A stretch of 27,099 nt of DNA, from NCBI GenBank assembly GCA_964035545.1, contig CAXIUT010000094.1, positions 1 through 27,099 of the forward strand, given 5' to 3'. Position 1 is the stretch's first letter; the number at the start of each line of letters is the position of its first letter. This DNA comes from Bugula neritina (Eukaryota; Bryozoa; Gymnolaemata; Cheilostomatida; Bugulidae). Both the position numbers and the translations under genes were made by a program. Shown here piece after piece: positions 4,809-27,099 of the stretch. Below the pieces are notes generated by a model. That model saw only the letters and a list, made by a program, of their open reading frames with translations, ran no database searches and was not told the origin of the DNA.

Positions 4809-5073
4809 TCTGTTTGACATTCTTTTGTTATATTTAATTTTTTTTTTTCCTATTTTCGATGTAGTTGCAACAAAAGAAAATGAGTTATTAAACAATATAA
4901 GTGAAAAATACAATATTTATCTATGTTTCTAATAGTTAAACAAGATACCATTTTTCGATAAATAAAAATATGTAAATGATAATGATGATTATCTTGAATA
5001 TTATTTTGAAGATAGATATGACATAAACATGAAAAGTTAATATATTTTTATATCAATAAAGAAAAATAAATGA
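4805..5073 (+). CDS. Short ORF, possible small secreted protein (uncertain)
   Basis: From 4867 to the TGA at 5071 the frame reads ATKENELLNNISEKYNIYL, then FEELNKIPFFDKEKYVNDND and ends SEYIFISIKKNK. This is protein-like composition with Glu codons written TAA/TAG. The ATG at 4805 overlaps the SRAP stop (ATGA) and gives a hydrophobic start MICLTFF. Joining the two needs either a 38-nt intron (4827-4864, GTTATA...GATGTAG) or a one-base correction in the run of T at 4838-4848. An undivided hydrophobic stretch in the second frame (LLLYLIFFFPIFDVVA) would make a plausible signal peptide. No family is recognised. It may be a real small gene or chance open sequence in the 3' flank of HMCES. Confidence 0.35.
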
Positions 5074-6502: not shown

Positions 6503-6753
6503 AAAGGTCATAAAAATCAAAGACAAGCGTGAAATAAAGATGCTAAAGTCTTGAGTTTTAGGAGATTGATCTAATTTATGATTTTGATAAATGATTACGA
6601 TTATTATTGCGTCAAATAAAATATCATAAAAATAAATAGTAGAGGTAAATAAACATGAGAGAATCAAGAAATAACCTTTTATTGAATAAACATCTTCTTT
6701 GTTATTAATTATTATTGATTAAACTCTTTTTAGGATAATGATGCTTTCTTTTT

Positions 6754-7245
6754 TCAACTTTGAAAATAATCAAAGCAAAAACAAACTTTTGTTGATGGTT
6801 TTACATTATTTGTCTTTTTAAGAGATATCTAACAAGGATAGCAGTGTTCTATCAGCTTAATAGTTTTATTTCTGAAAAAGTAGAACTAAAAAATATCTAC
6901 CACTTTTAAATTTATAAACTCTCCAACAACATACTTATTCTGAAAACAGAAAAATATAGGAATAGTAAAACTATTCTCTAACGACTTAATATTGATGTAA
7001 TTATATATATTTTGATTTAAAGACCTTGCTAAAATCCGAACTATCGATATTATAGACTGAAAAAATCAAAAATAATTCAAATTTAATATCAATAGATAGG
7101 CATCTTGAGGAACCTTCATTCAATCGGTAGAGCATATACGAATCACAGCCAAAAGGCCTCTAAATACTTTCCTTGTTTATGTTTTGAATATTTAAATCAT
7201 CAACTTATAATTTATCAACATTATAACATAACTCTTATATAATTA
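6754..7245 (-). other. Open minus-strand stretch downstream of the 7246-8813 gene, status unknown
   Basis: A minus-strand frame without TGA runs from about 7240 down to a TGA at 6756-6754, about 160 codons. It includes VDKLEVDDLNIQNINKES, DSYMLYRLNEGSSRC and a short hydrophobic FELFLIF. It is offset (+2) from the frame of the neighbouring gene, which stops at 7246. It has no ATG near its start, and no clean 20-nt intron links the two. It could be the C-terminal exon of that gene, a separate exon, or chance open sequence. The interval 6503-6753 shows no gene. Confidence 0.3.
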
Positions 7246-8813
7246 TCACTAATTAAAATATTACCTTTTGATTTTATCAATCAAAGATCTCGATATCTCT
7301 TTCATAAGATTCAAATGTAGTTCATAGCTGTCGCTCAGGCTATCAATATCATATATTTTATAAACATTTTAGTTTTATTCCAGCTTCTTAGTGGTTGGCA
7401 GCTGTGATTGCTGCATATAACTCTTCTTAAAATATACTACCTTATGCTCTTAGAACATATTCAAATTTTTACTACTGCTCAGCTTATGTTTAGATATCAA
7501 AATGTAAATACTGTTCTCATAACCTTTACAGTTTTCAGCACATACACGAGTTATCGAATATATTGGATTATATCCTTTAGATGATGACTTTGATTCACTT
7601 TTCTATTTCTTTTCTTCTTTTTTATCATCTTCAGAAGAAGTTCTTTTGGTTGCATGTTTTAAATAAATTGTATAGAATTCTTCATATAAGTGATCGTTTT
7701 TTATTTTACCATCAATAATGGTCTTGTAGTATGAATATTGTTTACCTGATGATGTTGAATCGATGTTCTAAAAGATAAAAAAAATATCACTTTTTATATA
7801 ATTTCTTAAAGTTTCATTAGATATCACTAATTCATTCTCTTCTTCAGTTGATACTGTAGCATTTTTTGTTAGTATCACATTTACATACTTCTTTGAGTCA
7901 TCTCTTTCATCTTTAACTATAGAGTAGGTTTATAATTTTTTATTATAGATTATGTTTAGTTTAGCATGAGCGACTCCTCTGACTATTTTTTATTTTATTT
8001 TGTCAGATTCCTCAAAAAGAACTAAACTTTCACCTATTTATGGTCTTTTGTAACAGTAAATAGGTAATAATTTGTAAAGAGCTGATAAAGAATTAGTTTA
8101 ATGTAGATAATTACCCAAAATAACAGGTAAAATAAAATTATTTATATACTTTTGATCTAAGCCAAGTCCTTAACTAAAATAAGTCAATCCTTATTCTTAA
8201 ATTTACCCAGGAAATGTATTTTTAACCAATCTACCGATAGATAAATGTTCCAAATTATACTTATAGATAGACGATGACTGTTTTGTGTTTTATGCAAACT
8301 TTTTAAAGAAGTCTTGAGCTGCATAGTTAGATAGCCCATAATTATATACAGAATTTAAAAAAGAAGTTTCTATTGAATATATATTGAACTCATTTTTATC
8401 ACTATTGATGGACATTTATCCAAAATATATCCCATATTCTTTGATATAATACTGCAAATTAGTATCATCTAGAAATTTCATCCATTCTTTCTAAACTCCA
8501 CAAAAACTAATCATCTTTTTTTACAACTAATCTCTCTAATCTTCAACAACTACTCCTTGAGGAGGTAATATCAAAGTGATGTTAAAATTAAGAACCTTTT
8601 CACGGTACATTGATTACTATTTTAACTGTTTATCTAGATACGATGTCAATAGGTATGCGTCAATTGAGTCTCCATAGATAACTATATTGTACGTGTAAAT
8701 ATCAGGTTTGTTTATTTTGCTATATTATGAGATAGATACAAGTAGAGGAGAAGAGGAAGGCCGATTGCTATTATACAGAATGTTATGAGGTAGTATTCGT
8801 CTATTATTTTCAT
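7246..8813 (-). CDS. N-terminally anchored membrane protein, possibly PIG-S-like
   Basis: Starts MKIIDEYYLITFCIIAIG with a transmembrane helix running into GLPLLLYFKINKPDIYTYNI. A 20-nt intron (8720-8739) lies within this stretch and its removal is required. The order TM helix - GLPL(x)-charged/aromatic - Y resembles the N-terminus of PIG-S, a GPI-transamidase subunit of the ER (human GLPLWWKTTE). The remaining 470 residues read as a large soluble, probably lumenal region with many Asn, Tyr and Ser and a Lys/Glu/Ser-rich insert (SEDDKKEEKKEKSESKSSSK). The total of 515 aa is near the PIG-S length. However, the expected C-terminal TM helix is missing before the TGA at 7248-7246, and the mid-protein PIG-S motifs were not recognised. 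The membrane-protein call is fairly sure; PIG-S is tentative. The promoter is shared with the divergent gene at 8945. Confidence 0.6.
8720..8739 (-). other. 20-nt spliceosomal intron
   Basis: On the minus strand GTATCT...ATATAG, 8739 down to 8720. It joins the TM-containing first exon (...GLPLLLY) to FKINKPDIYTYN; the unspliced frame reaches TGA about 25 codons later. Confidence 0.82.
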
Positions 8814-8944
8814 TTTTGATATCTAATTATTGTGAAATGGATATGAAGATGATTTTAGTTAGAATATATAGAATAGTAACTAAAGTTATGATTATTTGTT
8901 TGATTGATAAAGAATTTGTTAAATAATTTTCTTATTAATAAAAT

Positions 8945-9356
8945 ATGTAGTTTGAGTCGACTCAGATCAGTTCGCAAGTTCCTCTACCTCCTCCTGAACC
9001 TAAAATTTAGTATTATTCTATCTTATTTAGACCTATATCTGCTTTCCTACCTTTCGATAATTTTTAATTAGAGAGTTCTTCTCCTTTTTCTTCTACTTAA
9101 ATGCAACAATAACTGCATTCGTTTTCTCTCCAATCTTTTAGTGAGGCAGACACAATGTCAGACATCAAAGAAGAAGACTACAGCATTGAGGCTGAGTCTT
9201 TTGGTTGTAAAAGATCATGGTTTCAACTTGATGAGATTAATTCTCATGAGGTTAAACCAAAATTGCTTTCCAGGTTAGAAAGACCTCAAAGAGTGTAGTT
9301 AATATATTAAATAGACCAACGAAAAGACGTCATTTTTGAAATGGATCTTTTCTTGA
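8945..9356 (+). CDS. Small unknown protein, 129 aa
   Basis: Begins MEFESTQISSQVPLPPPEP, where the second codon is TAG. A Ser/Glu-rich, probably disordered region follows (SSSPFSSTEM, SFSEADTMSDIKEEDYSIE), with a more ordered patch CKRSWFQLDEINSHEVKPK. A 22-nt intron (9293-9314, GTGTAG...AAATAG) leads to TNEKTSFLKWIFS and a TGA at 9354-9356. Unspliced, the frame would run on through the convergent gene at 9427, which argues for the intron. No domain is recognised. The acidic/Ser-rich composition is compatible with a regulatory or phosphorylated linker protein. Confidence 0.6.
9293..9314 (+). other. 22-nt spliceosomal intron
   Basis: GTGTAG...AAATAG. Its removal lets the small gene stop at 9356, before the convergent Sec15-like gene, instead of overlapping it. 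Confidence 0.5.
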
Positions 9357-9426
9357 TTGTATTTAACTTCATTATATTATTCAAAAACATTCCTAGATTA
9401 ATATATTAATATCAACTTACTACTCA

Positions 9427-11670
9427 TCATTTCGGAGGTGCAGTCAACTTTTTAACTAAATTCTAAACATCCTTCTTCTTCAAGTCCCTTATCCTTCCCC
9501 CTGGAGATTTAGCTTGTACGTATTTCTTCAACATCAATACCACCATTTACAAATTGAGATTCGGATAGGATATTGATCTCTTCTGAGGATCAAGTAGATC
9601 TTGGATGTTATTCGTTAGCATAAGTGCATAAAACTACCTAAGAGATTTGAATTTATCAAGGATAGCTATATTTCCTACAAAACTTTTTGCACAATAGCGA
9701 TAGATGAAAGAAAGATCTGTATCTAGATTATGAATGATGATAAGATTGATTTCCTTTCTGCTTTTTAGATACTACCAATAAATTTAACACATTTATCTCA
9801 TAGTTTCAATAGTAATTTCCTAATAATTAGGACAATTGATTTATTTCATAAAAACTGTTATATTTCTAACAAACTAAAGCGACCATTCTACAAACTAGTT
9901 ATGACTCTAATTAACTACACTGCTCGACATCGAACTGTAATCCTACATCAAATTTACCAACTTATTTCGAATAACCTATAAAATATTATGAGTCAAGTTG
10001 ACAACCAATTGCTCGTATCGATCATTAGATGTGTTATTGATTACTATTCCATGATATGTTTATAGTTGTCTTAGAATGTATTTGTATATTTTGTTTATGA
10101 AGATTATATTGATCTAGCCTTGAATTATTTCGTAGTGTTGGTCTTTTTTTAGGATTTATTCGCCATATCTTTTGAGGATTCTATCGTAAAGATTATTTAT
10201 TGCCTAAAGGATGGTGTTTTGATTGATATCGCTGGATTATAGTAGTTTTGTTACCTAGTTATACGTTTTCATGAAATATTATAAGATGAAGATAACATAG
10301 CTGGTAAAAGTAAAAGGTTAACTTCCTAAATCAAGCATTTATCTAATAAGTATATTTTTTTAGTGATCTTCAGTTTGATAGTGAGTCATGTTATCATTAG
10401 CTATTTATTTTATAGATATAGACTAGTATGTTTAAATATTTCTATCATTGTGACTTTTAAGCAGACTGGTTATAATAGAGTTGTAGTTTTAATTGCTTTA
10501 ATTGAGTTTTAGAATGTTGAGTAATTTATGAAAAATAAGGAAATGTTCTTTCAAGATGATGATAGAGTTGATATCTTTGAGAATAAAGATCAATGATTTG
10601 ATTTATCTACCTATAAAGATGTACATTTGTGATAGAAATACTTTTTAATCTATTTTAGTATCAAAGAAAGCAGATACTTATCTCTTGACTAACATGAGTC
10701 CAATAAGTAGCGATAGTAAATTAACAAATTATTCTTATTTTTAACATCTATTTTATTCTTAAAATTTAATTAGATAATTTTTAATACTATTTCTTAACAT
10801 CTAGTTGAATATATTTTGATTATTCAATTAAACTATCATGACTTTAACTTTTTTAAGGCTAGACATCTAAACATTGATTCTATATGTTATTTTATTGAAA
10901 TAATCAATAGTTTACTATGAAGTTTTCATGATTCTACTAGAATTTTACTTTTATACAATAGTTGATCTAAAAGATGAGACATTGTTATTCATAATACTAC
11001 TTCTAGACATATTTTATCCAAAAAATATTTGATAAATATTCATCTTTTCTTGAAGATTAGAACTTATTTTGTTAAAACTTGATAAACCTATCTATAACAT
11101 CTTTCCATTATTTTACTACCAAAATAGTTATAAAAGTTTCTTCAGATGTTCTTGGATTTGTTTTTATAATAAAGGAAGTACATTGTTTAGAGGAGTATTC
11201 AACTATGGCTTATTTTTCTTATACTCGTTTATTATTTTAATAGCATTATTGTATTTCTACTATTTTATATTCATTGCTGCCTTTTTAGCCAATTTTACAT
11301 AATTCTATATTATATCATTTAATACCCTATACTCAGCTAGTTTTATTTTTATTTTTTTCATCATTTATAAATTCTTTTAACTCTTCTATATCTGTTGTTA
11401 GTCATATGCATTTAACTTTTGGGCTTTCTAGACATGTTTGCTAAATTACTAGCATTCAGCTTCTAATCTACGATGATAAAATAAGGTTTCGTGATGTTTC
11501 AAATAATGACTGATTACTGAATTGATATTATCTCCAAATAATTCACGTATTTCATGTTATTTTGTATCGATTTAGTTGTCTAAATCTTTCACACAGTCTT
11601 CAGTAGATCTGTTCCCTTCTTGGATAAAATCTTTTACTGTGTTAATTAGTTAGTTCAACTTGTCGCTCAT
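9427..11670 (-). CDS. Exocyst subunit Sec15-like (EXOC6 family)
   Basis: A single uninterrupted frame of 747 aa from MSDKLNELINTVKDFIQEG, almost entirely helical and close to the usual Sec15 length. Residues 115-185 (IKEEKYNNAIKIINEY and neighbours) resemble the N-terminal Sec15 segment 'kYy.ALk.le.L'. The central YILRQLETYHGIVINN and the C-terminal helices with DTDLSFIYRYCAKSF match the Sec15 C-terminal domain. So does YPNLNLEMVVLMLKKY, which recalls the family ending 'Y..v.p..v..LLeKy'. Sec15 is the Rab-binding exocyst subunit that tethers secretory vesicles at the plasma membrane. A Rab gene lies 6 kb away on this chromosome, though no functional link can be claimed. The identity rests on motif order and length, not on an alignment. 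Many Glu codons are TAA/TAG, and no intron is needed. Confidence 0.65.
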
Positions 11671-11833
11671 TTAATTATTAAAATCATAGATTTAACACTA
11701 TAAGATCTATCATTCTGATATATTGATCATAAAATTAAATCATCAAATACTAAATAAATAAAAACCGCTTAAAATTTAACAACTTCTTAAATTACATCAA
11801 AATTCAGTTTATAGTAATAATTATAAAAAGAAA

Positions 11834-14361
11834 ATGTCCTAAGACTCATATAATCCTCAATAATTTCAATAACTAATCACAACTGCAACAACCTACACAA
11901 CTAAAATATAATCTTTTTCAACAAAAATTTCATAATCTTCAATGTACTACTTATCTCATCTAGATATAACCAGCTAAAATGTCTCAGTCAGGCTCATTCT
12001 GTCCTTGCAGACCAATCAATACCAATAATAAAGAAACTTTTTACTATTAGATTCATTAAAGATACAATGCTACTTGCATCTCTTTCATTTATGTTATGTT
12101 TTTAGGTTAAAATCTTCCCTTGGTTATAAAAACTATCCAAATATCTGAAATTAGGCCAGTAAATCAAATTTCAAGAAATAAGTCGTTTTCTCAAAGGAAC
12201 TAAATAACTATCAACTCCATAAACTTCAGTTCGTAACAATTTTATCAATCTTGTTTAGGATTTTATCAAATGGATGGGCACGTATATTCAATAACATCCT
12301 TATTCTAAAATAAAATTTAGATCTGCTTTTAGAATTCTGCTTTAAAGATTACCTTATCTTAAATCAAGTTCTGTAAGTAAACTCAATTTTTTCAAAACTG
12401 ATGATCCCAAAAGATATCAGGCTTATTATTTGTAAAAGTAAAGTGGGTAGCTATATGGAGAAAGAATAACATAATATATTTAAAATACATTTGATAGCAT
12501 TTAAAAGATAAAAAATGATAATAATTTGGATTTATTTGTTCAAACAGGCGATCAGTATATTCCATATTATTTAGATTCGTTATTGATTCGATAATTAGAG
12601 AATATGATATCTTTTTCAATGATATGGATAGAAAGAAAGCTAGTAAAGGTCTTGTTATGATATAAAAATTGAATTAAATCATGAGAAGTGGAGATGTATA
12701 ACTATGTAATAAAGTAAAAAACTAGCTACTGCCTAAAATAGTGCAATTTGTTCTGATGGTAAATCATCATCAAATAATGTACAAAGGTTAAGAGGCAGGA
12801 ATGATAATGGCTAAAATGTTTTACGGCTGGAAAAAGCAATGTTAATTTTATAAACTTCCAAACAAAAGTTATTAATAGGCTATCGATGTTCTTTAAAGAG
12901 ATGGAATTTATATAGCTAATATGAATATCTAAGATAATATTGAGTAAAATTCATCTTTTGGACTTCTTCAATAAATAAATCAAGATAAAATTTCACAACT
13001 TTAACTCAATTAAAAACATAATATCAAGAAAATACAAATGTGTAAATTTATACCAACTTATTAAAGCTATGTCCCAGCTAAATAAGTTTCTAACTCGATG
13101 TTTCGACCCAATGATTCTAACAATTCTTTGGTAAACAAAAGTACAGATAAGAAGATAGGTTTTCTTGAGGCTTATTCCAAAATACCTCAAGTAATACCAC
13201 CTAAAAACACTTCTGAAGTAAAATAAATTCATTTCCAGCATAGTAATCTATCAGATAAATTTAATTACAGTCCTCAATAACAAAATGGCAAACAACTACT
13301 TATTTCATTTAAAAAAACATAAGAGCAATTGAAATTACCAGAAACATCGAATGTGAGATCAAAGGCATCTTTTTTGAAAGGTAGAGATAAAAATTATATT
13401 GATATTATAGAATAGAAATCAGAATATGTCATAAATTCATAAAATTCTAGAAGGTTAAAAGATGAACCAGCAAATGAAGATAGTATAAAAAAATAAGATA
13501 TTATATATTTACAGGAACAATCTAACAAAATATAAAAGGATCAGGCTAGCATAGTATCAGAATATTATCCTTAAATTAAATATTCAGCTAGTTTTATCAA
13601 AAAAAATTCATTTTAGCCTCAGGAAAGTATCAAAGGGAAAAATACCAAGTAAAAAATAAGAGAATTCGAATGAATATAAATATAAATAAAGAAATAGTTA
13701 ATTAGATTCAATAAGGAAAAGTAAACAGTCAATAAAATATAAATCATAGAAATCATCTTCAATTGATATTAATTTTAAATAAAAACAGTAAATTAAAAGT
13801 AAAATATTAAGTGGAAGTGGAATAAGACATACGTTTAAAAGTAGTTCAAAAGATGAGATGGTTAGATCTCCAATATCAAAAATATCTCATTCTAAAAGCA
13901 TTAAATTGATATAGTTTAATTAAGCATAAAAAAAAGGAGAACAAGGGTATGTGCTACCTTCATCTTCTAAAAGTTACCGATCACCAGAAGTAATTAAAGT
14001 ATAAAAAACAATATCTAAACCTAAATTTGGATTTAAAGTATAAAATTAAACAGAAACATAAGAAATATAAAGTCAATATTCTGATTCAAAGGTAGTTCAT
14101 TCGATAAGTAAGTCATAGAGTATATCAATTGATCCTTCTCTTGCTATTTCTGAATCAATTAAATAGATTCCTGATAATTTTGCTGACCTATTAACTGTTA
14201 GAAAATAGAAAATAAGGGTAAATGAGTATGATAATAAAATAAAAGAGTTGTAGACAAAGATATCTAGAATGAAAGATAAAAAAGATAAAATTATACAAGA
14301 AAGTTAATATCAAAGATTAGTAAATAAATAAGATTAAAAAATAAATGCCTATTCCTCTTGA
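11834..14361 (+). CDS. ANTH-like helical domain plus long disordered linker and coiled coil; probable endocytic adaptor N-terminal part
   Basis: Starts MSEDSYNPQEFQELITTATT. Two 20-nt introns (11944-11963 and 12555-12574) are needed. Residues 1-330 are helical: LKCLSQAHSVLADQS, RNNFINLVEDFIKWMGTYI, then after the second splice FVIDSIIREYDIFFNDMDRKKASK and EFYKLPN. The last pieces resemble the second half of an ANTH/AP180 phosphoinositide-binding domain ('...EDLIKIY...FFeMdr.kAlk...eFYk'). About 380 residues of Ser/Lys/Asn-rich linker follow, and a coiled coil (VRKEKIRVNEYDNKIKELET) ends the frame. Near 13650 the frame changes by +1. A 34-nt intron (13629-13662) or an A6 slip would explain it. 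The stop lies 17 bases inside the next ORF, so both are probably one gene. ANTH assignment is tentative. Confidence 0.6.
11944..11963 (+). other. 20-nt spliceosomal intron
   Basis: GTACTA...CATCTAG. It links KISESS to IYNQLKCLSQAHSV in the adaptor gene; the unspliced frame terminates after about 60 codons. Confidence 0.8.
12555..12574 (+). other. 20-nt spliceosomal intron
   Basis: GTATAT...TTTAG. It joins LFVQTGDQ to FVIDSIIREYDIFF and removes what otherwise looks like a frameshift in the adaptor gene. Confidence 0.82.
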
Positions 14362-15136
14362 AATATTAGAATAGTAAAATAAAAAATTATTAAAAGTATT
14401 AAAGCCAATTCGAAACCCAATAAAATAAAAGGGATTTACTACTTATTCTAACGAATTTAAAGGCTAGATAATTAATTTATCAATAGTTCCTCTCAAATAA
14501 TAAATAAAGAAACAAATGGTTTACTTAAAATGCCGTTTGTTTCATAATTAATACCTTTAGATTGGTCTTCAAACTAAAAACAAAATAATATCTCTTTATA
14601 TTACTTTTCTAAAATCAATATAATAATTTTATATCACTATTTAAGAAAATTCACTTCAACTTTCGGAAAATATTGATGCAAGAGTGTACAAAATAGATGA
14701 AGGCAAACAAGTTAAATTCAAAACTCAAATAAAAGGTTATCAACTCTTTGGAAACATTTTTTAATTGGCTAAATTAAACATTCTTCTCAAATTAGATAAA
14801 AATAGACAATCAAAACACTATACTATACCTCTTCCTTACAACCTATATAACTAGTTTACCTTCCATCCTCCCTCACATGATGTTAAATTTAATAAATGCA
14901 CTGATTGGCATTTCTGCTGTGAATCACTACTGACAAGTAACCATTACTTATAAGACCTTTTTCCTGAAGGATAATACTATGATGGTCTTTACTTAACCAA
15001 AGTATAGCTTAATGAGGAGTTATTTTAATATGGAATAGGAGTAGAAGGTTAGAAATGTAGTGTATATTTTAATAAAAAGCATGAATTAAAACAACTGGGC
15101 ATCCTTAAGTGTATTTTAAGCATAATATCAAGATGA
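14345..15136 (+). CDS. Alpha-adaptin appendage (ear)-like domain, probably C-terminal part of the preceding gene
   Basis: A 263-aa frame beginning MPIPLEILEEENKKLLKVLK. Residues 45-165 read as a beta-sandwich (IINLSIVPLKEEIKKQ, KGYQLFGNIFELAKLNILLK, PLPYNLYNEFTFHPPS). They resemble the alpha-adaptin sequence 'lnI.f......vqLPitlnKFfqP'. The rest (residues 170-263) parallels the platform subdomain: DWHF, LYLTKVELNEELFEYGIGV, CSVYFNKKHELKQLGILKCI. This is the AP-2 appendage architecture that recruits endocytic accessory proteins. The ATG overlaps the upstream coiled-coil frame by 17 bases. A fused product would need a +1 frame change, for example an intron of 13 or 55 nt starting at 14322, or a slip in the A6 run at 14336. 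As a separate gene it would be an orphan ear domain, which is less likely. Confidence 0.6.
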
Positions 15137-15146
15137 TGAATGACAA

Positions 15147-15812
15147 TCAGATTGTGATTTTTACTATTTCTTTTTTATTTCCTCCTTTTTCAGGATTTAT
15201 CTTGAGCAATGATTCCATGTGCATATTGTTAGCTTCTACACATTTTTTGAAGCTAAACATGTTGCCTCCTACTCCGAAATAGTAAACTTTGTTGGCGAGG
15301 ATTGCATATCCATCTTCTTTCAAACATTATTTTAAACATTTTAACAACTTATGATAGTTCTGTTCATTATAAATCAACTCGCTTCCGATTATGATGTCAT
15401 ACTTTTATGACTAACACTTTATTGCTTCCCAGTCTCCTGAAATAAAAATCATTTTCTAGCATTGTTCATCATTTATTTTCACGGTGGGCTTTGTCAATTT
15501 TTAAAGGACTTATTGATTGTAGTCCTGAAGACAAACTTCACTCGCTCCTAATTTAAGTGCCAAAATTCCAAGCAGGCCATGCCCACAGCCAATTTCCATA
15601 ACTTTTTTGTCTTTAAATAGCTTTTGATGATTAGCCATATATATGGATAGATCAACAGTACACTACCAAAGTTTAAAGCCTCCCTCATACGATCCAGGAA
15701 TGATGTCTACATTGTAAGCATTCATTTGGTTAGTATCAGAGATATATTTGAGCTTGAAGCCATTATCGATAGATAATAATGTTGTCTGGGGTTAAATTGT
15801 TTCTTGTTCCAT
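15147..15812 (-). CDS. METTL18: METTL18-type protein-histidine N-methyltransferase
   Basis: A class I SAM-dependent methyltransferase of 221 aa, intronless. Signature elements in order: SYEGGFKLWECTVDL (human METTL18 YEGGLKIWECTFDL), the SAM-binding motif I VMEIGCGHGLLGILAL, QDYN after the beta2 acidic position, GSELIYN and KVYYFGVGGNMFSF (human KAHYFGVGGG). METTL18 methylates a histidine of ribosomal protein uL3. The conserved Glu of KLWECT (residue 50) is encoded by TAG at 15665-15663, strong evidence for the Glu code. The protein lacks the long N-terminal extension of animal METTL18, giving a compact core. It is convergent with the adaptor gene; the two stops are about 10 bp apart. The ATG at 15812 follows immediately on AT-rich spacer. 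Confidence 0.9.
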
Positions 15813-16280
15813 AATGATTATTGAAAAAAAATGATGAAAAAATAATTTTAGAATTATAGTTCGAAACATTTGAAAAAAAGATTAAAATTTACATCTTTTT
15901 GATTTTTTACAATGATAAATGGTTTAAAAGCTTGTATTTCAATTTAAAAGGATAGCTAAAGATAGAAATCTCTAAAAGACTCTGAAAGTAAATAAAAAAG
16001 GTTCATCTTTAATCTTATCTACTTTTTTTTGTTCTCAGAAACCAATAAATAGCATTTAAGACAGCTTCAATATTTTCTGATTGCTCTATCATAACAATAT
16101 ATATAATAAATTCTAAGAAAAGCTAGTCATATTTATTTCAGACTTTAAGTGTTTTTGAGAATTTCACTGCTTTTATTCATAAAAATATTGTGTATAAACC
16201 TCAAATGAGCTCTTTAAATAGTTATTAGAATCAAGTTATAATAATAATATTATGGAACTAAGTTTAAACTAAAAACGGCA
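15813..16280. promoter_or_regulatory. Intergenic region between divergent METTL18-like and HTH genes
   Basis: About 470 bases of AT-rich sequence with TGA in all frames and no protein-like stretch on either strand. As the genes diverge, both promoters must lie here. No recognisable box was found. Confidence 0.4.
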
Positions 16281-16688
16281 ATGTCGAAGAGTTTCCATCA
16301 CAGTACTATGAATTCCATCTAGAAACGAAAAAAACTGTTCAGGGATGTGTTTGTAAAGAAAATATCGATTAATAGCTCAGCTAAGAATATTGGTATAAAA
16401 TACTCAACTGCGAAGGCAATAATAAAACGTTTTAAAGAAAATAAACTTAGTGGAAATCATTACGAGTCCTAAGATGAATCTTTTGACATAGAATTTTCAC
16501 CATAATTATTAGTTCAGGATAGAAGAGAAAATGAGAATCCAGAGCCAACTGAGTTGAACTAAAACCAAGAATTATTGAATACAAGCTATGTTTTTTAAAA
16601 CAATTATTATTACTATTGGAACTTTAATGGAGATTACGCTAATCCGAGCTGGTAACCATATATTCTAGTTCCTTTTTGGATGCCTTGA
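16281..16688 (+). CDS. Small helix-turn-helix protein, 135 aa
   Basis: Starts MSKSFHHSTMNSIEKRKKLF. Residues 27-55 (VKKISINSSAKNIGIKYSTA, then KAIIKRFKENK) have the shape of a helix-turn-helix. A first helix with the AAK-like SSAKNIGI and a recognition helix YSTAKAIIKRF are typical of homeodomain-like or transposase-type HTH units. The second half is acidic (ESEDESFDIEF, ENENPEPTEL) and then aromatic (YVFENNYYYYWNFNGDYANP), ending WMP. A DNA-binding regulator is the simplest reading. A remnant of a transposase DNA-binding domain is an alternative, but no catalytic domain is nearby. A longer 5' extension is blocked by TGA in frame. No intron is needed. Confidence 0.65.
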
Positions 16689-17026
16689 AATTCATTGATC
16701 AAAATAAAAATATTTAAAATTTATATATAAAATTTTTGCTTTCCCAATAATAGTATGAACAAAGGTTTTATTTCTAAGATTTTTTTCTTTCTTACAAACT
16801 TTTTAATTCTTGAAAAACATTTTTTAACAAATATTAAGATTTTACATTCTTTTCTTTGTTATAAAAATTATTAAAAATCTTTATAATTGTAGATTTAAAT
16901 TTGTAAGATAAGAAATATATCAGTTCCAAAAAATATTTATTTTGATTAAATATTTTAACATTTTTAATTTTCAATTCACTCACAAAAGTTGTATCTCTAG
17001 AATTATAGGATAGAATATTAATAAAA
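16689..17026. other. AT-rich intergenic region
   Basis: About 340 bases of highly AT-rich sequence between the HTH and BolA genes, without a coding frame on either strand. It presumably holds the 3' flank of one and the promoter of the other; no motif was recognised. Confidence 0.4.
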
Positions 17027-17356
17027 ATGATTAAATTATATCAAACTATCATCTTTAGAGCAAGCAAAGTTTAAACAGCCATCCAACATGCAATTCAAAG
17101 TCATTTGAAACCCTAAAGACTTGAAATAACAAATTAAAGTCATCGCCATTCTCGAGGAACTGATTCTCATTTTAACATCCTTATTGTATCAGATCAGTTT
17201 AAAGATCTTTCCAAAGTCAAACAACACCAACTGGTTTATTCTTCACTTGGAAGTTTAATGAAGTAAGTTCACGCTGTAACCCTGACATGTTACGAAAAAT
17301 AGCCCTAAAATGCAAAAGCTTGGAGTCTTGGTTGTTTTCATTCGAAATAAAAGTGA
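17027..17356 (+). CDS. BolA-family protein
   Basis: BolA proteins pair with monothiol glutaredoxins in iron-sulfur cluster trafficking. The 109-aa intronless frame starts MIKLYQTIIFRASKVETAIQ, whose first 15 residues are basic/hydrophobic without acids and could be a mitochondrial presequence. Then come LKPERLEITNESHRHSRG, TDSHFNILIVSDQFKD, KVKQHQLVYSSLGSLMKE and VHAVTLTCYEKEPENAKAW. This is the full BolA pattern: SHFNV-type strand, the conserved His/Arg-VY helix, and the invariant His of (I/V)HAL that ligates the cluster. The SHRH motif at the first loop is BolA1-like rather than BolA3-like. The calpain-like gene starts 41 bp downstream on the same strand. Confidence 0.9.
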
Positions 17357-17396
17357 TATATTAAACTCTTTGATAGTCATAATATTTTGAAACTTT

Positions 17397-20227
17397 ATGT
17401 AACACGATCCCGAAGAGCATCCTCTATCTGAGCCAGACTTGGGAGGAGATTAAGACATTTTTGATGGAGAAGATGATGACGAGGAAGAAAATCTCATGGA
17501 TGATGATGAAGGTGACGTCGCTTCTTCAGATTCGTAACTGCAAGTATAAGATCCTTCACATGAAAAAGGATAAAACTAAGAATTTAAATAGGAATAAGAT
17601 ATGGATGATCCCATGAGAGAATACTTCTAAAAGTAGACAGCAGTCTTACAATGGCTTGCAGCTAATCCTGGTCAAAAATGGGTAGATAAAGATTTTCCAA
17701 CGAATGGAACTCAGTTCTATTAAGATACTGCAAATCTTCCTACTTGGGGCTTGCTCTTTAAAAATCTAGAGTGGAAAAGACCTGAAGAAATCATTAAAGA
17801 TCCTAAATTCATGATCATAGAAGATTAAAAGGGAAGTAAAATTATTGATATTGATGCTAAACATGGCATGTTCGGAGCTAGTCAATTTATTTCTGGACTG
17901 TCGATTATTGGAACTCGTTCACACCTGATAGATAAACTAATTATCGAAAAAGATTATTTTGATAAAGGTTTTGTTTCCTTCCAATTCTTTAAAAATGGAA
18001 AATGGGTTCAAGTTATTGTTGATACTTTGCTTCCTTATGAAAAAGAACAAAATAACAGAACATGCATCTATAGTTCTTGCACAAATCCTCAATAGTTTTG
18101 GATTCAACTCATGGAAAAAGCCTTTGCTAAACTTCATAGAAATTATCAACGTATTACTAATGTTAGCACTCTTGATGTCCTTGTTGATATGACTGGAGGG
18201 CTCTCAGAACAAGTTGAACTTCAGTTCAAAGGTGATAAAAAAGACCCAGTTGCACTTTGGCAAGGTCTTTATGGATATCTCCAGCAAAAGTTTATTCTTT
18301 CAGCTCTTAACAGTGTTGAATAAAGAGGTTTAAAAGATGCTGAACAAGGTCAACAAGGAATTCTTGAAAATCATCAATATACTATCCTTGATATGAGAGA
18401 TTATCCTAAAGATAATTTAAAATTAGTCCGCTTGAGAAATCCTTGGGGAAATGAGGGAGTATGGACAGGTCCATTTTGTGAATAAGCTGATGATTGGTAA
18501 AAATATAAAGCAGTGAAGGAAGATGTTAAGAACGCACCAAAAACAAAGAAATCAGATGGATCATGGTGGATGTCATTCACTGATTTTTTACTTCAATTTG
18601 ATAAAGTTGCTGTTAACAAAGTATTTTCTGAGAATTGGGAGGTCTATTCAATAGAAAGTCAATGGACACCTAAAACAAACGGAGGTAAATGTCCAATTCC
18701 AAATGAAAAGGGAGGCTAAACTAAATAAAATTTTAAAAATGAACATCTTCAGCCATAAAGTGATGATCGTTGGTTCAATAATCCTCAATTCAGAGTAAAA
18801 ATTCAAAAAGATACTAAAATATATATCAGCTTAATGTTATAAGATCAAAATATCAGTGGACAACCTTACGTTTCTTGCGGATATATGCTTTCTTCAAGCA
18901 AATCAAAAAATGAACGATTCTGGTAACGACCTCCTGAAGCAGATATACTAGCTGAAGTTAACTATCATAATCAAATTCCTCTTCAAAGAGAGATTACTCA
19001 AATGTTTGTTCTTAAAAAAGGATAAAAATCACCAGGAATTTTTATAATAGTTCCTAACATCAATGATATCAAAGAACAGTTCAAAAAAGATTAAAGTAGA
19101 AAATTTTATTTAAGAATCTTTACTCCTGATGCAATAGATGTGACATAAATGCCTGAGACTATTGAACAAACTGTTGATGGAACATGGACTGAACAATTAG
19201 CAGGAGGAAGTAGAAAGATATAAATGAAATAGGATGGAAATAATAAAAAGAAAGGAGATTTCAAAGATAATCCTGCATGGTGCAAAAATCCTCAATATTT
19301 CGTAGTGGTCAAACAACCAACATTAGCTAAAGTTATTTTAAGAAAAGCTGGAACTAAAAAATATAAAGGATGGAAAATAGGTCTTACTGTTTGCAGATAT
19401 TAAGCTCCTGAAGAAAAGAAAATTTAAAAAGAACCTAGAAGAGATAAGAAAAATGCTGGTCACAATATTCAAAGACTTATCCAACAGACAAGTGAATTTC
19501 TTAAGCCTCCAGTGTTAGGTGATGTTTAAAGAAAACTTCAAATCGATACTCATGAAAAATACAAATAATCAGGATATCTTAGTGAAGAAGTATCAGCTCT
19601 TTTCTTCAGATGGAATCCAACTTAAGGCCCTTTTATTCTTATTCCCTCATCTGATGGAGAATAACGAGTATTCAGCTATAAACTCACCATATTCAGCAAC
19701 TCTCCAGTTGAAATGATTAGATTGGATGATTCAAAGAATCAAGTTTTAATGGGAAAATGGGAAAAAGATATTTCAGCTGGAGGATGCCATCTGAATGAAA
19801 AAGAAAAATAAGTATCTCATGTAATTATCTTGTTATTCAGAGAACATGGTCAATGAATCCTAAACTTTTACTTACTTTTAAAGAAGAAGAAATGATGTGG
19901 GAAGAACCCAGTCAACTCAAAATTACTCTTGCTATTGCAGAAAAGAACTGGAAGAAAATGAACCCAAACACAGTTAGTGGTATGATAGGCATATATCTGC
20001 TTGAAAAAAGATAAGGAAAGCTAGTTTATACTCCTGATGTCGTTATTTCTCAGACAAACTTTCTTCCAGTCAAGACAATAACTTTGGAGACCACAGTTGG
20101 TGGAGATAAACCTCTCCTGAAGGGAGGTTATATTATAATGCCCAGCACTTATGATAGAAACATTCAAGGAAGTTTTATTCTTTCAGTGAAGTGCGATCGT
20201 GCTTTCGATTTAGTTCCCACCAAATGA
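17397..20227 (+). CDS. Calpain-like protein with degenerate catalytic centre
   Basis: 933 aa from two exons around a 29-nt intron (19812-19840). Residues 1-75 are acidic and disordered. The calpain protease-core fold follows: KWVDKDFPTNGTQFY, the active-site segment HGMFGASQFISG, EFWIQLMEKAFAKLH, NHQYTILDMRDY and LVRLRNPWGNEGVWTGPF. In active calpains the first motif is GDCWFL; here it is GASQFI, so the nucleophile Cys is replaced by Ser-162. The His (residue 326) and Asn (348) of the triad are retained. Downstream are two calpain domain III (C2-like) units, around residues 450-620 and 625-930, the second including GGCHLNE and WSMNPKLLL. No EF-hands are seen. Probably a non-proteolytic calpain acting as scaffold or regulator. 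Glu-233 of EFW is TAG. Confidence 0.9.
19812..19840 (+). other. 29-nt spliceosomal intron
   Basis: GTATCT...TATTCAG in the second domain III of the calpain-like gene. Splicing restores the GGC...W..NP signature; retention gives TGA 14 codons on. It is the longest firmly supported intron here. Confidence 0.85.
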
Positions 20228-20280
20228 TGATCAATATCATAATTACATCTTATCAGTTATTATAGTAAATACAAATACAA

Positions 20281-22657
20281 ATGGGTATTCTTTAAAGTTG
20301 TGAAGGAGATCCTGGAATGAAGTTTACTCTTGATTAAAAACTATTTCGAGATTCTCAAGGACCTCGTTATTCATCTGATGATTATTTTTTTAAACCATCG
20401 AATGTTAAATTGTTTGGAGATCTACTTTATAAAAAAGGAAATAAAACTTAATTTGTACTTCAAACATTCTATACTAATAAAGGATCAAAAGTTGCTAACC
20501 AATCTTTGAGAATTTACGATTCTGCTCAATAATTTCTCGAGGAAAAAGGATGCAAAATCAAACTATAAACTCCCGTTTCCGATCCAAATATATTTGGCAA
20601 TCAATTTTTGGTCTGTAAAATGAAAGGTCATCACAATTAGATGACAATCAAGTACGTATCTTTCAACAGATACGAATAGGACAAATTTAAATAGGCGCTA
20701 TTTGAAGTCACTATGCTCCAAAAGAGTTTAACATAAGAAAACAATCGTTATGGTTATGTTTATAATTAAGCTTTTGTAGTTTAATCTGGCCTTCATAAAG
20801 ATAACAAAGACAAATGTTTGATAGTTTTAGGATAAAATGCCTCTGCCTCTCTTTCTGAATTGATTCACTACCGTAAAATGTCTAAATCTCCATGGACAGA
20901 AAGTCAATATACTTCTCTATGCTATAATCTTATTAAATGTGTTCATTAATTACATAAAAAAAAATTAGCTCATAGAGATATTCGTCCTTTTAATTTTGTT
21001 TATAATGCTACTAAAAGAAGTTTTATTTTAGGAGGATTGCAGCATGCTACATCTGTTGAAAGTGATCCTAAAACTGGATATAATCTTTGTGGTGTACCAT
21101 ATTATTTACCTCCAAAACTTATCTAAATTGGAAAACGATAAGATTTTTCTTAATATTATATCTATAGTCCTTATAAAGTTGATATCTATGCTCTTGGAGT
21201 CACTTTATTGAACTGTCTTTTTCTCGATCAATTTACATCTCCTCAAATATTGGCCTAATCTTTGAAAAAATACACTCAAAAATGGAATTTCCTTCACAAA
21301 GTAAAATAAATGATTGGAGAGAATCCACCTCGCTTAGACTAAATTTTAGCTTCAGTAGGTACAAGTGAATCATTTCTCGAGTAACGTGCAAGTATAGAAT
21401 CAATGCGTTATAGAATGAAACCTCAAGATAACTAATTTGTTGGTCGTAAGCAATCAATAGCTTAAAGTTATTATAGTATGTTTATGTATGATCAATGGGT
21501 TAGCTAAATTAATGAAGTAGTCAATTATTATGAAATGAATAAATGTTATATGCAGCTAGGAGATGTCTACAAGCAGATAGCTGATGTTTATCATGAACAT
21601 GATGATACTTAAAGTAAATCTTATGATATTTAGAGGAAATGAAATAGTTTTATGGAAAAGCTTGTTCAACTTATTTGTTTATTAGTCAAGAATGTATAGA
21701 TGAGAATAAAACATAGTAAGCTATAAAATATCTTTAAAAAGGTATTGATTGTAATCGAAAAGGATAAAGAGGATCGCCTAATCAATAACTTGCTTATCTT
21801 CTTAATCGTTTAGCTTTGACTTATCATAAAAAGGGTGATTGCGAAATAGCCAGAGCCTTTCAAGAGTAATCTCTAGATATCATTGCCAAGTATCTTTAAT
21901 ATCTATTCAGAGTTTATGGTACAAATACTCATTATTATGCTTAAATGTTAACTGATTCTGCTAAAATTGAATCTTAATTTCAATAATTCAAACAAGCATA
22001 AAATATGCTAAAAGCAGGACTCAAAATCATGGATAAAATAAAAGACTAAACACCTGAACAACATAGAATAAAAATAAAACTACTTGAAGCATTAGGAACT
22101 AATTATAGATTAAAAGCTCTTGAGAGGAGAGAGAAAAGTGATATTTATCGAAAAAAAGGAGAATAAGCTTTATTAGATGCTCTTTAAATAGCTTAAACTC
22201 ATTAAGGAAACATTAGTCCATTAGTTGGTACCATTTTAATGTCACTTGGGAATATTTATTTCGATAGACGTGATTTTGAAAAAGCAAAAAAGACTTACTA
22301 AAAGTATAATTTATTTTATTAAGATCTCTTATCATTAAACAACATACTCAAGGTAAAAGAGAAACAATTGAAGTAGGAGAGTGTTTGACATTTTTAGCTA
22401 ACTCAGAAAAATGTTTAAAATAACTTGATAAGGCAATCAAGCACTATGATTAAGCGATTGAAGTTTATCGAAGAGCATATGGAAATGATCATAATGAAAA
22501 TACTGCAGTTGCTATAGGAAATCTTGGAATAGTATACAAGTAACTAGGTCATAAAGAGCAAGAAAAAGAATATTTATCTCTTGCAAAAACAATTCTTAAA
22601 GATCTTTTAGGATAACAAAGTCCGGATTATCAATATTTTGATCGTCAAAGTCGTTGA
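20281..22657 (+). CDS. Pseudokinase with C-terminal TPR array
   Basis: 778 aa from three exons separated by two 20-nt introns (21614-21633, 22304-22323). Residues 60-350 have protein-kinase layout: MTIKYV with a VAIK-like Lys-124, the helix-C region EALFEVTMLQ, CVHELHKKKLAHRDIRPFN with HRD at 231-233, and the F-helix VDIYALGVTLL. Key residues are lost. The Lys of HRDxK is Arg, the DFG motif reads GGL (251-253) and APE reads PPK. Phosphotransfer is therefore unlikely. From about residue 420 there are repeated TPR-like helix pairs (ACSTYLFISQECIDENKTEE, LAYLLNRLALTYHKKGDCEI, AIGNLGIVYKELGHKEQEKE), similar to kinesin-light-chain-type TPRs. Such pseudokinase-TPR proteins usually scaffold partners. 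It lies 53 bp after the calpain-like gene on the same strand. Confidence 0.85.
21614..21633 (+). other. 20-nt spliceosomal intron
   Basis: GTAAAT...TATTTAG. It joins EHDDTEK to EMKEFYGKACSTY in the pseudokinase gene; unspliced, the frame stops at AAATGA. Confidence 0.88.
22304..22323 (+). other. 20-nt spliceosomal intron
   Basis: GTATAA...TATTAAG. It links FEKAKKTYEK to SLIIKQHTQGK within the TPR array; the unspliced frame meets TGA about 22 codons later. Confidence 0.85.
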
Positions 22658-23205
22658 AAATGATAATTATATGCAATTAATACTATATTTTTAATAACTT
22701 TTAACCTTTTCTTTACAAATCGAAGGTTTATCTTTGATTTTGAATTTAAAAGTGGGTAATTATTTATATTATCATTCGAACATATGGTCCGAGAGTTAAA
22801 AAGCGATAAATTTTTATTCTAATGAAAGAATTTCCTTCTACTTATCAAAATAAAATTATCTAATGCTATTTTTTGTTCTATATTTTTTTAAATTGAGAAC
22901 TCATCGAAGAATATTGGATAGAACATCTTTAACAAATCAATATTATTTGATTATTTAATCATTAATAAACTAATAACTATTATTCTTTCGACTTCTTTTT
23001 CACTCTACATTAGTAATGAGCTTTTGAACATTCTTTAAAAAATAAAACAACCATAAGTCAAAAATCCGGTCATTCAAAAAAATTCTTCTGAAAGCTTAAT
23101 AACTATATTTTTGAAGAGTTGAAATAATTCTTCGTTAAATTTTTCAAAAACTGATTTGATATAAAACTTACTTATTCATTAGTTTATATTTTAGCTTTTT
23201 TTGAT
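22658..23205. other. AT-rich intergenic region
   Basis: About 550 bases with TGA in every plus frame and no protein-like minus frame. It holds the 3' flank of the pseudokinase gene and the promoter of the following small gene. No regulatory motif was recognised. Confidence 0.45.
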
Positions 23206-23688
23206 ATGAATATTATAATTGTATTCGATTAAAACTCTTCTATGGAAATGCAAGCGCTAAATTCTTCGAAATGCTCTTAAGAAAACCAATTTACTTCTAG
23301 AATGGGTTACTTCTCATTTAGACATGAAATGATGAATATTTTGCCTCCTATGAAAAGAACATCTTAGTATATAGTTCACTTATGGAATTAACTATTAAAC
23401 AATTAAAAAAACACTTAAAAGAGCTAGAGTGATAATATTTCAATGAAATATTCAATTTAGCCTTAAAATTAAAACAATTTTGACTAAATACTTTTGAAGC
23501 CAGCAGAAAACTGTGATAATTTAAATATTCAACAATCTTTAAAATCTTAAATCAAAGAGGAAAAGGTTTTAGACACAAAAATAGAACTAGCATAGGTTAT
23601 TATTTAAGATATATCGAGTTCTACTCCAGAAAGTCGTAAAAAGAAGAACATCAAAAAGTTAATCAAACGTGCATCAACCAGATACTGA
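23206..23688 (+). CDS. Unknown polar protein, 160 aa
   Basis: Frame MNIIIVFDENSSMEMQALNS to SRKKKNIKKLIKRASTRY with TGA at 23686-23688, no intron. Alternative starts are Met-13 and Met-15. The middle is Asn/Ser/Glu-rich (NNEKNTEKSESDNISMK) with a few Trp/Leu patches (YIVHLWNELL) and ISSSTPESRKKK near the end. The last 20 residues are strongly basic and could bind nucleic acid or act as a nuclear signal. No domain was recognised. It is convergent with the coiled-coil gene carrying the telomeric tract; the two stops are 57 bp apart. Confidence 0.5.
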
Positions 23689-23744
23689 CCCCAAATTAAA
23701 AGTAATGACCTGATTTTATCAAATTATCAACTATAACAATAATA

Positions 23745-24982
23745 TCAATGATTAACTGAGCCAGGCATCTTCCCTTCTTTGAATCTTGTTGTCAGGGGTT
23801 GGGGTTGGGGTTGGGGTTGGGGTTGGGGTTGGGGTTGGGGTTGGGGTTGGGGTTGGGGTTGGGGTTGGGGTTGGGGATAGCGAGATAGTGATGCCTGACG
23901 AATAGGTCTGCTGGTTAGTGGTGAAGAACTTTGTCCTAGTTCATTATTTATAGTTGATAGTGAAGAGGTGTTTTTTGTTTTTTTTCCTTTAGAAGTAACA
24001 AGTTGTGAGGTAGTTCTTTTATTTTTTCTATCAACAAGAGCAACAAGAGTATCAGGGTTGGTTTAACTTAATTTATTCATCTAAGTATAAGATAAAATAC
24101 ATTAGAATGATGATAATCTTCTAAAAGTTGCATTTTTACATCTACTAAGGCATTTAAAATATTTTATTTTACTTGTTCTTTCATATACTTTGTCTTTATC
24201 TTAAACTCATTAAATATCTTCTGTTAACTATTCTCATTATTCATTTCAAAATGTTTTTTCATAGGTAAATTATGAGAGTTTACCATTTTCTTAGTATATT
24301 GATCAGCAACCTGCAAATCAAGTAACTAACTTCTCAGCTTAAAATAATCTTCAAGACTGGTTCCTGAATACTTATTACGAAAAATTACCTGATTATTCTT
24401 TTTCTAGACATGTCGATCCATCTAATTTAAAACTATTGATTTTTTGTTTTAAAATTATTTTTTAAATTAAGAAAATTCCTCAATCAGTTAATTACATTGA
24501 TTTTTTGCATCAGTTCCACTTGTTTTTGTTTTTCTACGACCTGATCTAGAACGTAATCTTCTTTGCTAAGATTTTTTAAGTTCATCTTTAAGTCCATATT
24601 TCTCCTTATCATTGGATCTTTTAATACGTTCCAATTGCTTGACATCTATTCCTGTAGTATTTTTATAACTTTGCAATAGTTTTTGAACTTGCTCTGAAAA
24701 CTCATATAGTTGTTACTAAAATTTGGTCAGCATATTTTGTTCAATACCTGATAAGTAAGAATCGTTAGGATCATTAATTCTTTTTAATAAGTCTAAAATG
24801 GTTGTAAGGTGATGTTGACAATCTGAAGTTGGATTGTAATTGAGATCTAGAGTACATTTAAGAATTGTTTAACGAATATGTTCATGCAGAATTATGTATA
24901 GTTTAGATAGTTCGCCTACTACCTCTTGAGATTTTTGAGATTTTTAGACAAATTTTCGCCATTATCTTTGAGTGTTTTCCAT
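23745..24982 (-). CDS. Coiled-coil protein with C-terminal (Pro-Gln)13 tract encoded by telomeric repeats
   Basis: 405 aa from two exons around a 20-nt intron (24081-24100). Starts MENTQREWRKFVEKSQKSQE. Residues 1-130 and 190-315 are helical/coiled-coil (EEQLYEFSEQVQKLLQSYKN, CNELIEEFSEFKKEFENKK, QVKENILNALVDVKMQLLED) with a basic patch RRLRSRSGRRKTKT between them. After the splice the tail is Ser/Thr/Lys-rich (TSQLVTSKGKKTKNTSS, SPLTSRPIRQASLSRY). It runs directly into 13 Pro-Gln repeats and ends LTTRFKEGKMPGSVNH. The Pro-Gln block is read from perfect CCCCAA repeats. The spliced length is a whole number of codons including the tract. Function is unknown; the basic patches would suit a nuclear or microtubule-associated protein. 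An assembly join at the tract cannot be excluded without reads. Confidence 0.7.
23762..23897. repeat. 8-bp inverted repeat flanking the internal telomeric tract
   Basis: CAGGCATC at 23762-23769 and its exact reverse complement GATGCCTG at 23890-23897 bracket the tract at 25 and 13 bases. The arms do not extend further. A match this short can occur by chance. Confidence 0.5.
23795..23876. repeat. Interstitial telomeric tract, (GGGGTT)13GGGG
   Basis: 82 bases of perfect GGGGTT repeats on the plus strand lie 3.2 kb inside the right end. Orientation is that of a right-hand telomere for the 1-23876 part. On the minus strand it reads CCC CAA CCC CAA in frame within the 23745-24982 gene, giving 13 Pro-Gln units followed by Pro-Leu. 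The frame is open on both sides and ends at a TGA 48 bases past the tract. Confidence 0.95.
24081..24100 (-). other. 20-nt spliceosomal intron
   Basis: On the minus strand GTATTT...ACTTAG, 24100 down to 24081. Unspliced, the frame stops at TGA directly after; spliced, it continues MNKLSETNPDTLVAL to the Pro-Gln tract. Confidence 0.8.
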
Positions 24983-25118
24983 AATAAATTTAATATTTGT
25001 TATTCAATTAACTATTATAATAGTTCTTAAAATTTTGACTTCATTTCTTTGATTAAAGATAATTTAGTCTTTATTTTCGTTCAATAAAAAAAATAATATT
25101 TATAAAATTAGTAAAAAA
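24983..25118. other. Short intergenic spacer
   Basis: About 136 AT-rich bases between the stop of the DNAJC7-like gene and the start of the coiled-coil gene on the same strand. No feature was recognised. Confidence 0.4.
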
Positions 25119-26762
25119 TCATGCAAAATTGCCTTTTTGATTGAAAGAACTAAAATTTCCAGAACCAAATCCTGGAAAACCTCCAAAGCCTCCAAAATTT
25201 TTAGCCTTTGATGATCCTCTGTTTTTTTTATTTCCATTTGTTCCACCTCTCATTCCTCCGAAATTCGATTAAAATCCTCCCAAATCATCTCCTCCTTGAT
25301 TAAAAAACATAGAAAACAATTGAGAAGGATCTATTCCTTGTCCTCCCATATCTTTTCCATTGAAGGTAAACTTAGTATTTCCACCTCCCATGTTTCCCAT
25401 ATTACTTGAACTGAAATAAGTCCCTTGCTGACCCATATCTTGGAATCCATCAAAACCAGTATCACCATCATATTCCATTTGTCCACAGTCGTATTTCTTT
25501 CTTTTCTCTGGATCAGTTAGTACTCCATGAGCTTCAGCTATGTCTTTAAATTTCTTTGCTGCTTCTTCTTGTTCTATGTCGCTTTTGTTTCTATTTCTGT
25601 CTGGATGGAATTTCAAAGCTAAAGATTTATATGCTTTCTTGATTTATGCATCTGTTGATTTCTTTGTTACTCCTAATATAGCATAGTAATCTTTTTTCTT
25701 GGCTTGTCTTTATTTTTTCTGAGCCTCTTATATTTTAGCTTTTAAGTTTATTTTTGGGTCAAGTTCTTGAATTTTACCATAATCCTGGATAGCTGCAGAG
25801 TATTCAGCTCTTTCCATGTTGAGTTCAGCTCTTCTTACTAAAGATTTCATGTAATTTGGGTCTAGTTCAAGAGATTTATTAAGATCTTGAAGAGCTTTGA
25901 TCTTTTATCCTGTTTTCATATAACATAGAGCTCTGTTGGAATAAATAACTGAGTTAAGTTTTTTATTGTAGGGATCCAAATTAAGAGCTTATGAATATTT
26001 TGCTTCTGCTTCTCTATATTTCTTTTCTTTTATCAATTCGTTTCCTTGTTATTTAAAAACTTAACATCTTTTGGCCTTATTAAGAGCTTTTTGACATTTA
26101 GTATTTTATGGGTCTAATCTCATACCATCAGAAAATAGTTTCTTAGCTTTTGTACTATCGCCATTATATAGTTCGATTATTCCTTTCAAATAGTAAAACT
26201 AAGGAGTATTTTAGTTATGCATTGAGGATAGTAATTGACTTGCTTCAGTAGTTTATCCAGTCTTAGCTAAACATTAAACTTTATTGAGTTTCAATGTTTT
26301 GTTTATTGGTATTTTTGTAACCAAATAGTTGATACAAGAAAGAGCTTAAGAATAATCGTTAGATTTATCTCCTGCAAGATATCGATCGTAGTTAGATTTG
26401 AGAGATTATACTTCTTCAAGTTAGTTATTTGATGTAATATTTTTTTAGATGTTTGCATAGGATTTCATGGCTTCAACAGCTTCTTAGAATTTTAATATAT
26501 TGACACATGCTTGAGACTTTTTTTTGTAAACCTTAGCAAACTGAGGATTCAATCGAAGAGCTATATTACAATCTCTAATGCACTCTTCAAAACGATTCAA
26601 GTTGAAATAGCAAAGAGATCTGTTTGAAAAGAATGAAGGATCTTCATAAACTTCGATAGCTTTGGTATAGTATTGAATAGCTTTGTTGTAGTCTTGCGAT
26701 TTGTAGGCTTGATTTCCTTGATCTTTGTATTTTTGAGCAACACTGTTGTATTAGATATCCAT
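25119..26762 (-). CDS. DNAJC7: TPR and J-domain co-chaperone, DNAJC7 (TPR2)-like
   Basis: 547 aa, one uninterrupted frame starting [23 protein letters not shown] motifs run from about residue 8 to 340 ([60 protein letters not shown]). A basic helix and the J domain from about residue 360 follow: [20 protein letters not shown], then [16 protein letters not shown] with HPD at 386-388 and [11 protein letters not shown]. The HPD tripeptide stimulates Hsp70 ATPase, and the TPRs dock Hsp70/Hsp90 C-termini. Unlike human DNAJC7, the C-terminus continues for about 120 Gly/Phe/Asn-rich residues ([34 protein letters not shown]), recalling a G/F region. The Glu of DAEIKKAY is TAA (25646-25644). The gene is the last before the right telomere. 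Confidence 0.93.
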
Positions 26763-26982
26763 TGTTTTGTTTTATTATACTTGTCAGTTTTTTCTAATTT
26801 GATCTATATAAAATAGAGTTTTCTAGAATACTCTTTTTATTTGTTGATTTCTGATAAAAACAATCAAAATAAAAGTTGTTCTTTTTGTTAAATTTTGATA
26901 AACAAGTATTAGTTAGGTGAGTTTTATTCTTACTAAGTATATTATCAAGATAAGATAATGATATATTTTAAAAACAAAAAGA
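26763..26982. promoter_or_regulatory. Right subtelomeric spacer and presumed promoter of the DNAJC7-like gene
   Basis: 220 AT-rich bases between the first ATG of the terminal gene and the telomere. No coding frame and no recognisable motif. This is the whole 5' region available to that gene. Confidence 0.45.
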
Positions 26983-27099
26983 GGGGTTGGGGTTGGGGTT
27001 GGGGTTGGGGTTGGGGTTGGGGTTGGGGTTGGGGTTGGGGTTGGGGTTGGGGTTGGGGTTGGGGTTGGGGTTGGGGTTGGGGTTGGGGTTGGGGTTGGG
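26983..27099. repeat. Right macronuclear telomere, (GGGGTT)n
   Basis: 117 bases of uninterrupted GGGGTT to the end of the window. With the left CCCCAA end this shows that the window is a complete linear chromosome. Confidence 0.98.

Follow-up and report, generated by a model that had tools for sequence, protein, structure and literature searches.

An internal telomere tract within a gene as a probable alternative telomere-addition site in a peritrich macronucleus

The window analysed here is a whole contig of 27,099 bases (C92), one of 295 contigs in an assembly of 215.8 Mb. It carries a telomere at each end, at 1-69 on the left, beginning CCCAACCCC, and at 26983-27099 on the right, ending GGGGTTGGG. 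Between them lies a single internal telomere tract, (GGGGTT)13GGGG, at 23795-23876; all three are annotated on the plus strand. The internal tract is perfect, as a sequence-only reading of this DNA had described it: 82 bases with a period of six and 100% matches. In the window CCCCAACCCCAA has 38 matches, confined to the internal and the two terminal tracts, and the mean in 100 shuffles is 0.00. The tract divides the window into a left part, A (70-23794), which has telomere tracts on both sides, and a right part, B (23877-26982), which is single copy in the assembly. By eye, an inverted 8-base similarity, CAGGCATC, can be seen flanking the tract. A search with window positions 5000-23794 listed no near-identical second copy, and the window's own copy was likewise unlisted.

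The right part contains a DNAJC7-like gene with TPR repeats and a DnaJ domain on the minus strand (25119-26762, within a frame of 25119-26783, the ATG placed by eye). A kinase-TPR gene lies at 20274-22657, and a copy that is 72% identical is found in different surroundings in contig C183 (L031, 2587-4965). The genetic code was read from this pair. TAA or TAG stands opposite Glu codons 19 times and opposite Gln codons 4 times, all in the one paralogous gene pair, and this fits the earlier guess that the DNA comes from a peritrich. The peritrich placement is drawn from the genetic code alone, and the Pfam scores under both codes are close. The large contigs, which make up most of the assembly, look like another eukaryote; their GC is 0.30-0.31 in three 2-kb samples (C1, C5 and C6). 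Near the end of C5 and near the start of C6, contigs of 16-18 Mb, there are long CCCCAAA-type telomere arrays with variants (L001-L003).

The tract interrupts a minus-strand gene. Exon 1 spans 24101-24982, with its ATG at 24982, and encodes 294 residues; it is followed by an intron of 20 bases, GT..AG, at 24081-24100, placed by eye. Exon 2 as assembled (23745-24080) starts with 204 bases to the right of the tract, crosses it and closes with 47 bases and a TGA on the left side. The gene reading has 294 + 111 residues with a TGA only at its end, and the spliced two-exon gene proposed earlier is consistent with these open frames and the short intron. The tract reads (PQ)13-P in the frame of the gene, i.e. 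every CCCCAA unit is Pro-Gln as had been claimed, and is followed by a codon that straddles its edge, 15 residues and the TGA at 23747-23745. The stop codon had been placed 48 bases beyond the tract; it is there, with 47 bases intervening.

The tract and the frame are real in the given sequence. The six frames of the telomere repeat read GV, GL, GW, PQ, PN or PT and never a stop, so an open frame is not evidence of coding, and any gene that receives a telomere is read through. No Pfam family was found for the reading frame 24077-25003, which holds exon 1, and searches with exon 2 and with the frame of a second interrupted contig, C26, gave only weak sub-cut-off matches. A (Pro-Gln)13 repeat that is truly coding and telomere-like by resemblance only would agree with the frame being open on either side of the tract and with the CCCCAA runs of 20-25 bases in three further contigs. 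We consider it barely credible. The codons are identical in all 13 units, the sole Pfam match is to a repeat family at 23.1 against a cut-off of 100 bits, and the end phase and orientation of the tract match those of hundreds of tracts that lie mostly in AT-rich DNA. The earlier proposal that telomeric repeats serve here as coding sequence is not supported, as the tract bears the marks of a whole chromosome end; very probably the organism has no such Pro-Gln repeat in a protein.

The marks of a chromosome end are seen when the tract is compared with the other telomeres of the assembly. The two strands have 3408 and 6533 occurrences of a 22-mer of the repeat. Among internal tracts that are followed by A or C, 206 end in the phase TTGGG (185 forward, 21 reverse), 37 in GGGG (29 and 8) and 30 in TT, TTG or TTGG combined (25 and 5, a few of them irregular or part of terminal tracts); these are the five phases that were searched. 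The share of GGGG, 37/243 or 15%, is about the share of G, as expected where the next base happens to be G. Some 400 internal tracts in total would be expected if roughly every second one is followed by A or C. The counts obtained with a reversed pattern as a 'control' are not chance nulls, as the backward pattern matches the beginnings of tracts.

The contig ends have the same phase. Telomeres are present at 24 of 27 right ends, and 21 of these 24 end with exactly GGGGTTGGG; of 20 contigs whose start was read, 17 begin with exactly CCCAACCCC. Eleven junctions had been picked before the phase search (three in C10, two each in C11 and C14, one each in C150, C200 and C290, and the window); nine end in TTGGG, with C200 ambiguous, and two in GGGG, including the window. 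A later set of 38 junctions has 35 TTGGG and 3 GGGG ends, but many of these were picked by such an end and the script required it, so the set is not independent. In most internal tracts the repeat stops in the same phase, ..TTGGG, as at the free contig ends. The tract in the window is a complete telomere in the free-end phase, as expected of an alternative telomere-addition site.

Internal tracts are somewhat shorter than free telomeres, with medians of 77 and 89.5 bases (n = 38 each, p 0.0003; one value in the free-telomere sample is a 5-base parsing artefact), and 37 of the 38 are at most 99 bases long. A limit on the overhang that is tolerated would fit these lengths, and a fusion of short telomeres would fit them equally.

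An exact end phase is also that of a blunted end, and it therefore suits the main rival explanation, a ligation chimera formed during library construction. Here the blunted telomere of a whole 23.9-kb chromosome would have been ligated to a 3.2-kb fragment broken from the end of an unrelated chromosome. Such multi-chromosome chimeras with embedded telomeres were present among Oxytricha long reads (PMC6937825). However, telomeric ends should then also join each other, and the one exact form of a telomere-telomere join that was searched in the assembly gave 0 matches with at most one mismatch. The large contigs are a further difficulty: most of the assembly seems to belong to another eukaryote, yet those right parts that can be judged end in ciliate telomeres.

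The orientation of the tracts bears on the same question. We checked twelve contigs below 48 kb with both telomeres and a clear tract (C11, C14, C21, C26, C30, C31, C33, C34, C42, C92, C150 and C200), and in each of the twelve the internal tract reads GGGGTT along the contig. The reverse type, at full length and clear of the left end, is confined among the listed places to contigs of 47.6 to 417.6 kb (C15, C20, C24, C35, C39, C40, C51, C55, C58, C70, C94, C97, C120, C132, C133, C171, C216 and C263). The short contigs C93, C112 and C290 have reverse-type runs of 20-25 bases only. These CCCCAA runs, below telomere length and away from the ends, are found at L132 175-199 (C93), L134 about 586-605 (C112) and L025 1339-1360 (C290).

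Because the strand of a contig is arbitrary, one-way tracts are not expected of real double-stranded joins, natural or ligated. Ligation should show no orientation bias, and the twelve one-way contigs argue against it. The layout of reads by an assembler can yield one-way tracts, if the assembler retains the unaligned tail of a read but not the head of the next. Long contigs built from several stretches would presumably mix both orientations.

The same observation weighs against a real internal telomere, either from breaks that were capped by telomerase in the macronucleus and then rejoined, or from a repeat encoded in the germline. This would explain natural neighbours on both sides of a tract, and 'extremely rare' cases are described in the macronuclear assemblies of Oxytricha and Stylonychia (PMC7285179). 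We nevertheless regard it as very improbable. The orientation tracks the arbitrary contig strand, the far end of the tract retains the free-end phase, and hundreds of near-perfect tracts show no decay. It is just as hard to accept that telomerase caps hundreds of internal macronuclear breaks, that the ends rejoin their old neighbours and that some genes read the repeats as protein.

Most of the sites lie in AT-rich surroundings. In the sample of 38, the GC of the left flanks is 0.18 in the last 25 bases and 0.31 at 100-150 bases; with such AT-rich flanks most sites lie outside genes. The tendency towards non-coding DNA is found in this sample, with the window as the exception: its left flank has a GC of 0.40, the highest of the set, and its site, unlike most, is in GC-rich and probably coding DNA. 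Two tracts in C14 lie close to apparent genes. A tRNA-Ser-like start was noticed by eye one base past the first (L016, from 8552), where ARAGORN listed no tRNA in L016, and an arrestin-like gene has its ATG 17 bases past the next (L017, from 96).

To see whether the two sides of a tract are natural neighbours, we compared true with false pairs of sides. GC is flat to the right of the tracts, as would also be expected from random partners. Open frames do not continue across the 33 junctions more than by chance (mean 63 against 57 with random pairing, p 0.11), and at least 60 codons are open on both sides in 11 of them, against 11.6 by random pairing. Neither frame continuity nor Pfam domains at the starts of the right parts separated the models. 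The flat GC and the lack of an excess in frame continuity fit random partners, i.e. a ligation chimera.

Three contigs suggest neighbours. In C11 the internal telomere adjoins an array, about 2.2 kb long, of a 29-base satellite (L012, 5310-7534), with a related short stretch opposite. The satellite at the end of the left side recurs on the right side, where it takes up the first 2.2 kb. No other strong match is seen among the 38 true pairs, and the false pairs have none, bar one pair of the same DNA. In C26 one frame stays open for 233 codons up to the tract, through it and for 232 codons beyond, and the 50 codons on either side have coding scores of 5.8 and 5.9; a PDB search with this frame gave nothing. 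A coding score of at least 5 on a junction is reached by 1 of 33 true and 1 of 1056 false pairs, and a score of at least 0 by 2 of 33 and 5.3%. The third contig, C94, starts with a telomere, 89 bases and another telomere (L133, 1-337), and the 89 bases align with the DNA that follows, with a score of 35.5 against 25.5 for the best of 300 shuffles. C94 carries one chromosome end twice. It is the only positive in the homology test for doubled ends, which was negative in C93, C126, C10, C11, C14 and the window.

The GC of the nearest 40 bases on the two sides is correlated across junctions (rho 0.48, p 0.002, n=33), also without the window (0.43, p 0.006). The correlation is lost at 80 bases (0.16, p 0.19), one of several spans that were tried. 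By GC, the 40 bases that precede the tract in the window rank in the top 1.9% for the left part, and the 60 that follow it rank in the top 0.16% for the right part. To the left of the tract the gene's frame is the best of six, with a score that is reached by 9% of 111 control frames. The evidence from single contigs that the two sides are natural neighbours is moderate, while frame continuity over all junctions is no better than random pairing. For the window, GC and frame at the flanks favour the adjacency of B to A, again to a moderate degree and short of proof. Together with C11, C26 and C94 the flanks in the window make a ligation chimera doubtful, and we consider it improbable, although it is a more serious possibility than the other alternatives. 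Since the right part has no left telomere, we rejected a head-to-tail join between two complete chromosomes.

In our view a macronuclear chromosome of a peritrich probably has an alternative telomere-addition site at position 23794, the telomere of a short isoform having stayed in the contig in place of about 82 native bases. Three elements of this explanation are inferred: the isoforms, the role of the assembler and, for the window, that A and B are adjacent. Some molecules would end at 23794 with a telomere of about 82 bases, and A would be the body of this short isoform. Other molecules would continue for about 3.1 kb to 26982, with the rest of the gene and the DNAJC7-like gene, so that B would be the native continuation in the long isoform. 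The assembler may have set a short-isoform read against long-isoform reads and retained its unaligned terminal telomere. It would then have resumed the long isoform, so that the telomere covers about an equal length of native sequence; we propose that the first ~82 bases of B are overwritten in this way. The Pro-Gln segment would then be absent from every transcript. In the long isoform the gene would cross the site with about 27 other codons, and the short isoform would lack most of the gene.

The sequence-only reading had also suggested that the tract is a telomere-seeding or breakage point whose orientation caps the left 23.9 kb, and this is supported. It had named an assembly join of two chromosomes as an outcome that would refute it. 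A join is indeed close to what we propose, although the two parts resemble natural neighbours more than they do unrelated chromosomes.

With alternative telomere addition, an assembly can hold the telomere of a short isoform inside a contig. Such a telomere passes any gene as an open frame and may be annotated as a repeat protein. The interest of the tract is as a pointer to alternative chromosome ends and not as a new protein repeat. Properly read, such tracts map the choice of chromosome ends in a peritrich; a literature search at the level of titles and abstracts found no such map for peritrichs. The choice between chromosome ends is of a known kind, here in a little-studied group.

Alternative telomere-addition sites (ATASs), or alternative fragmentation of macronuclear chromosomes, are reported for Blepharisma, with 46,705 potential ATASs (PMC9942806), for Paramecium bursaria (PMC7702705) and for Oxytricha, where the alternative fragmentation sites are described as lying mostly in AT-rich DNA (PMC3558436). 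The tracts described here resemble these systems in that telomeres occur at many internal places and the sites are mostly AT-rich and gene-poor. According to the cited accounts those sites were found from reads, whereas here the telomere is inside an assembled contig. A telomere embedded between two chromosome stretches is also a feature of the chimeric long reads of Oxytricha (PMC6937825). However, the filter patterns given there include telomere-telomere joins, of which none was found here, and the short contigs are one-way. The macronuclear assemblies of Oxytricha and Stylonychia are reported to have 36 and 39 cases of internal telomeric repeats, with at least two repeats each (PMC7285179). 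Those repeats are likewise away from the contig ends, but here there are hundreds, mostly of full length and with one end phase.
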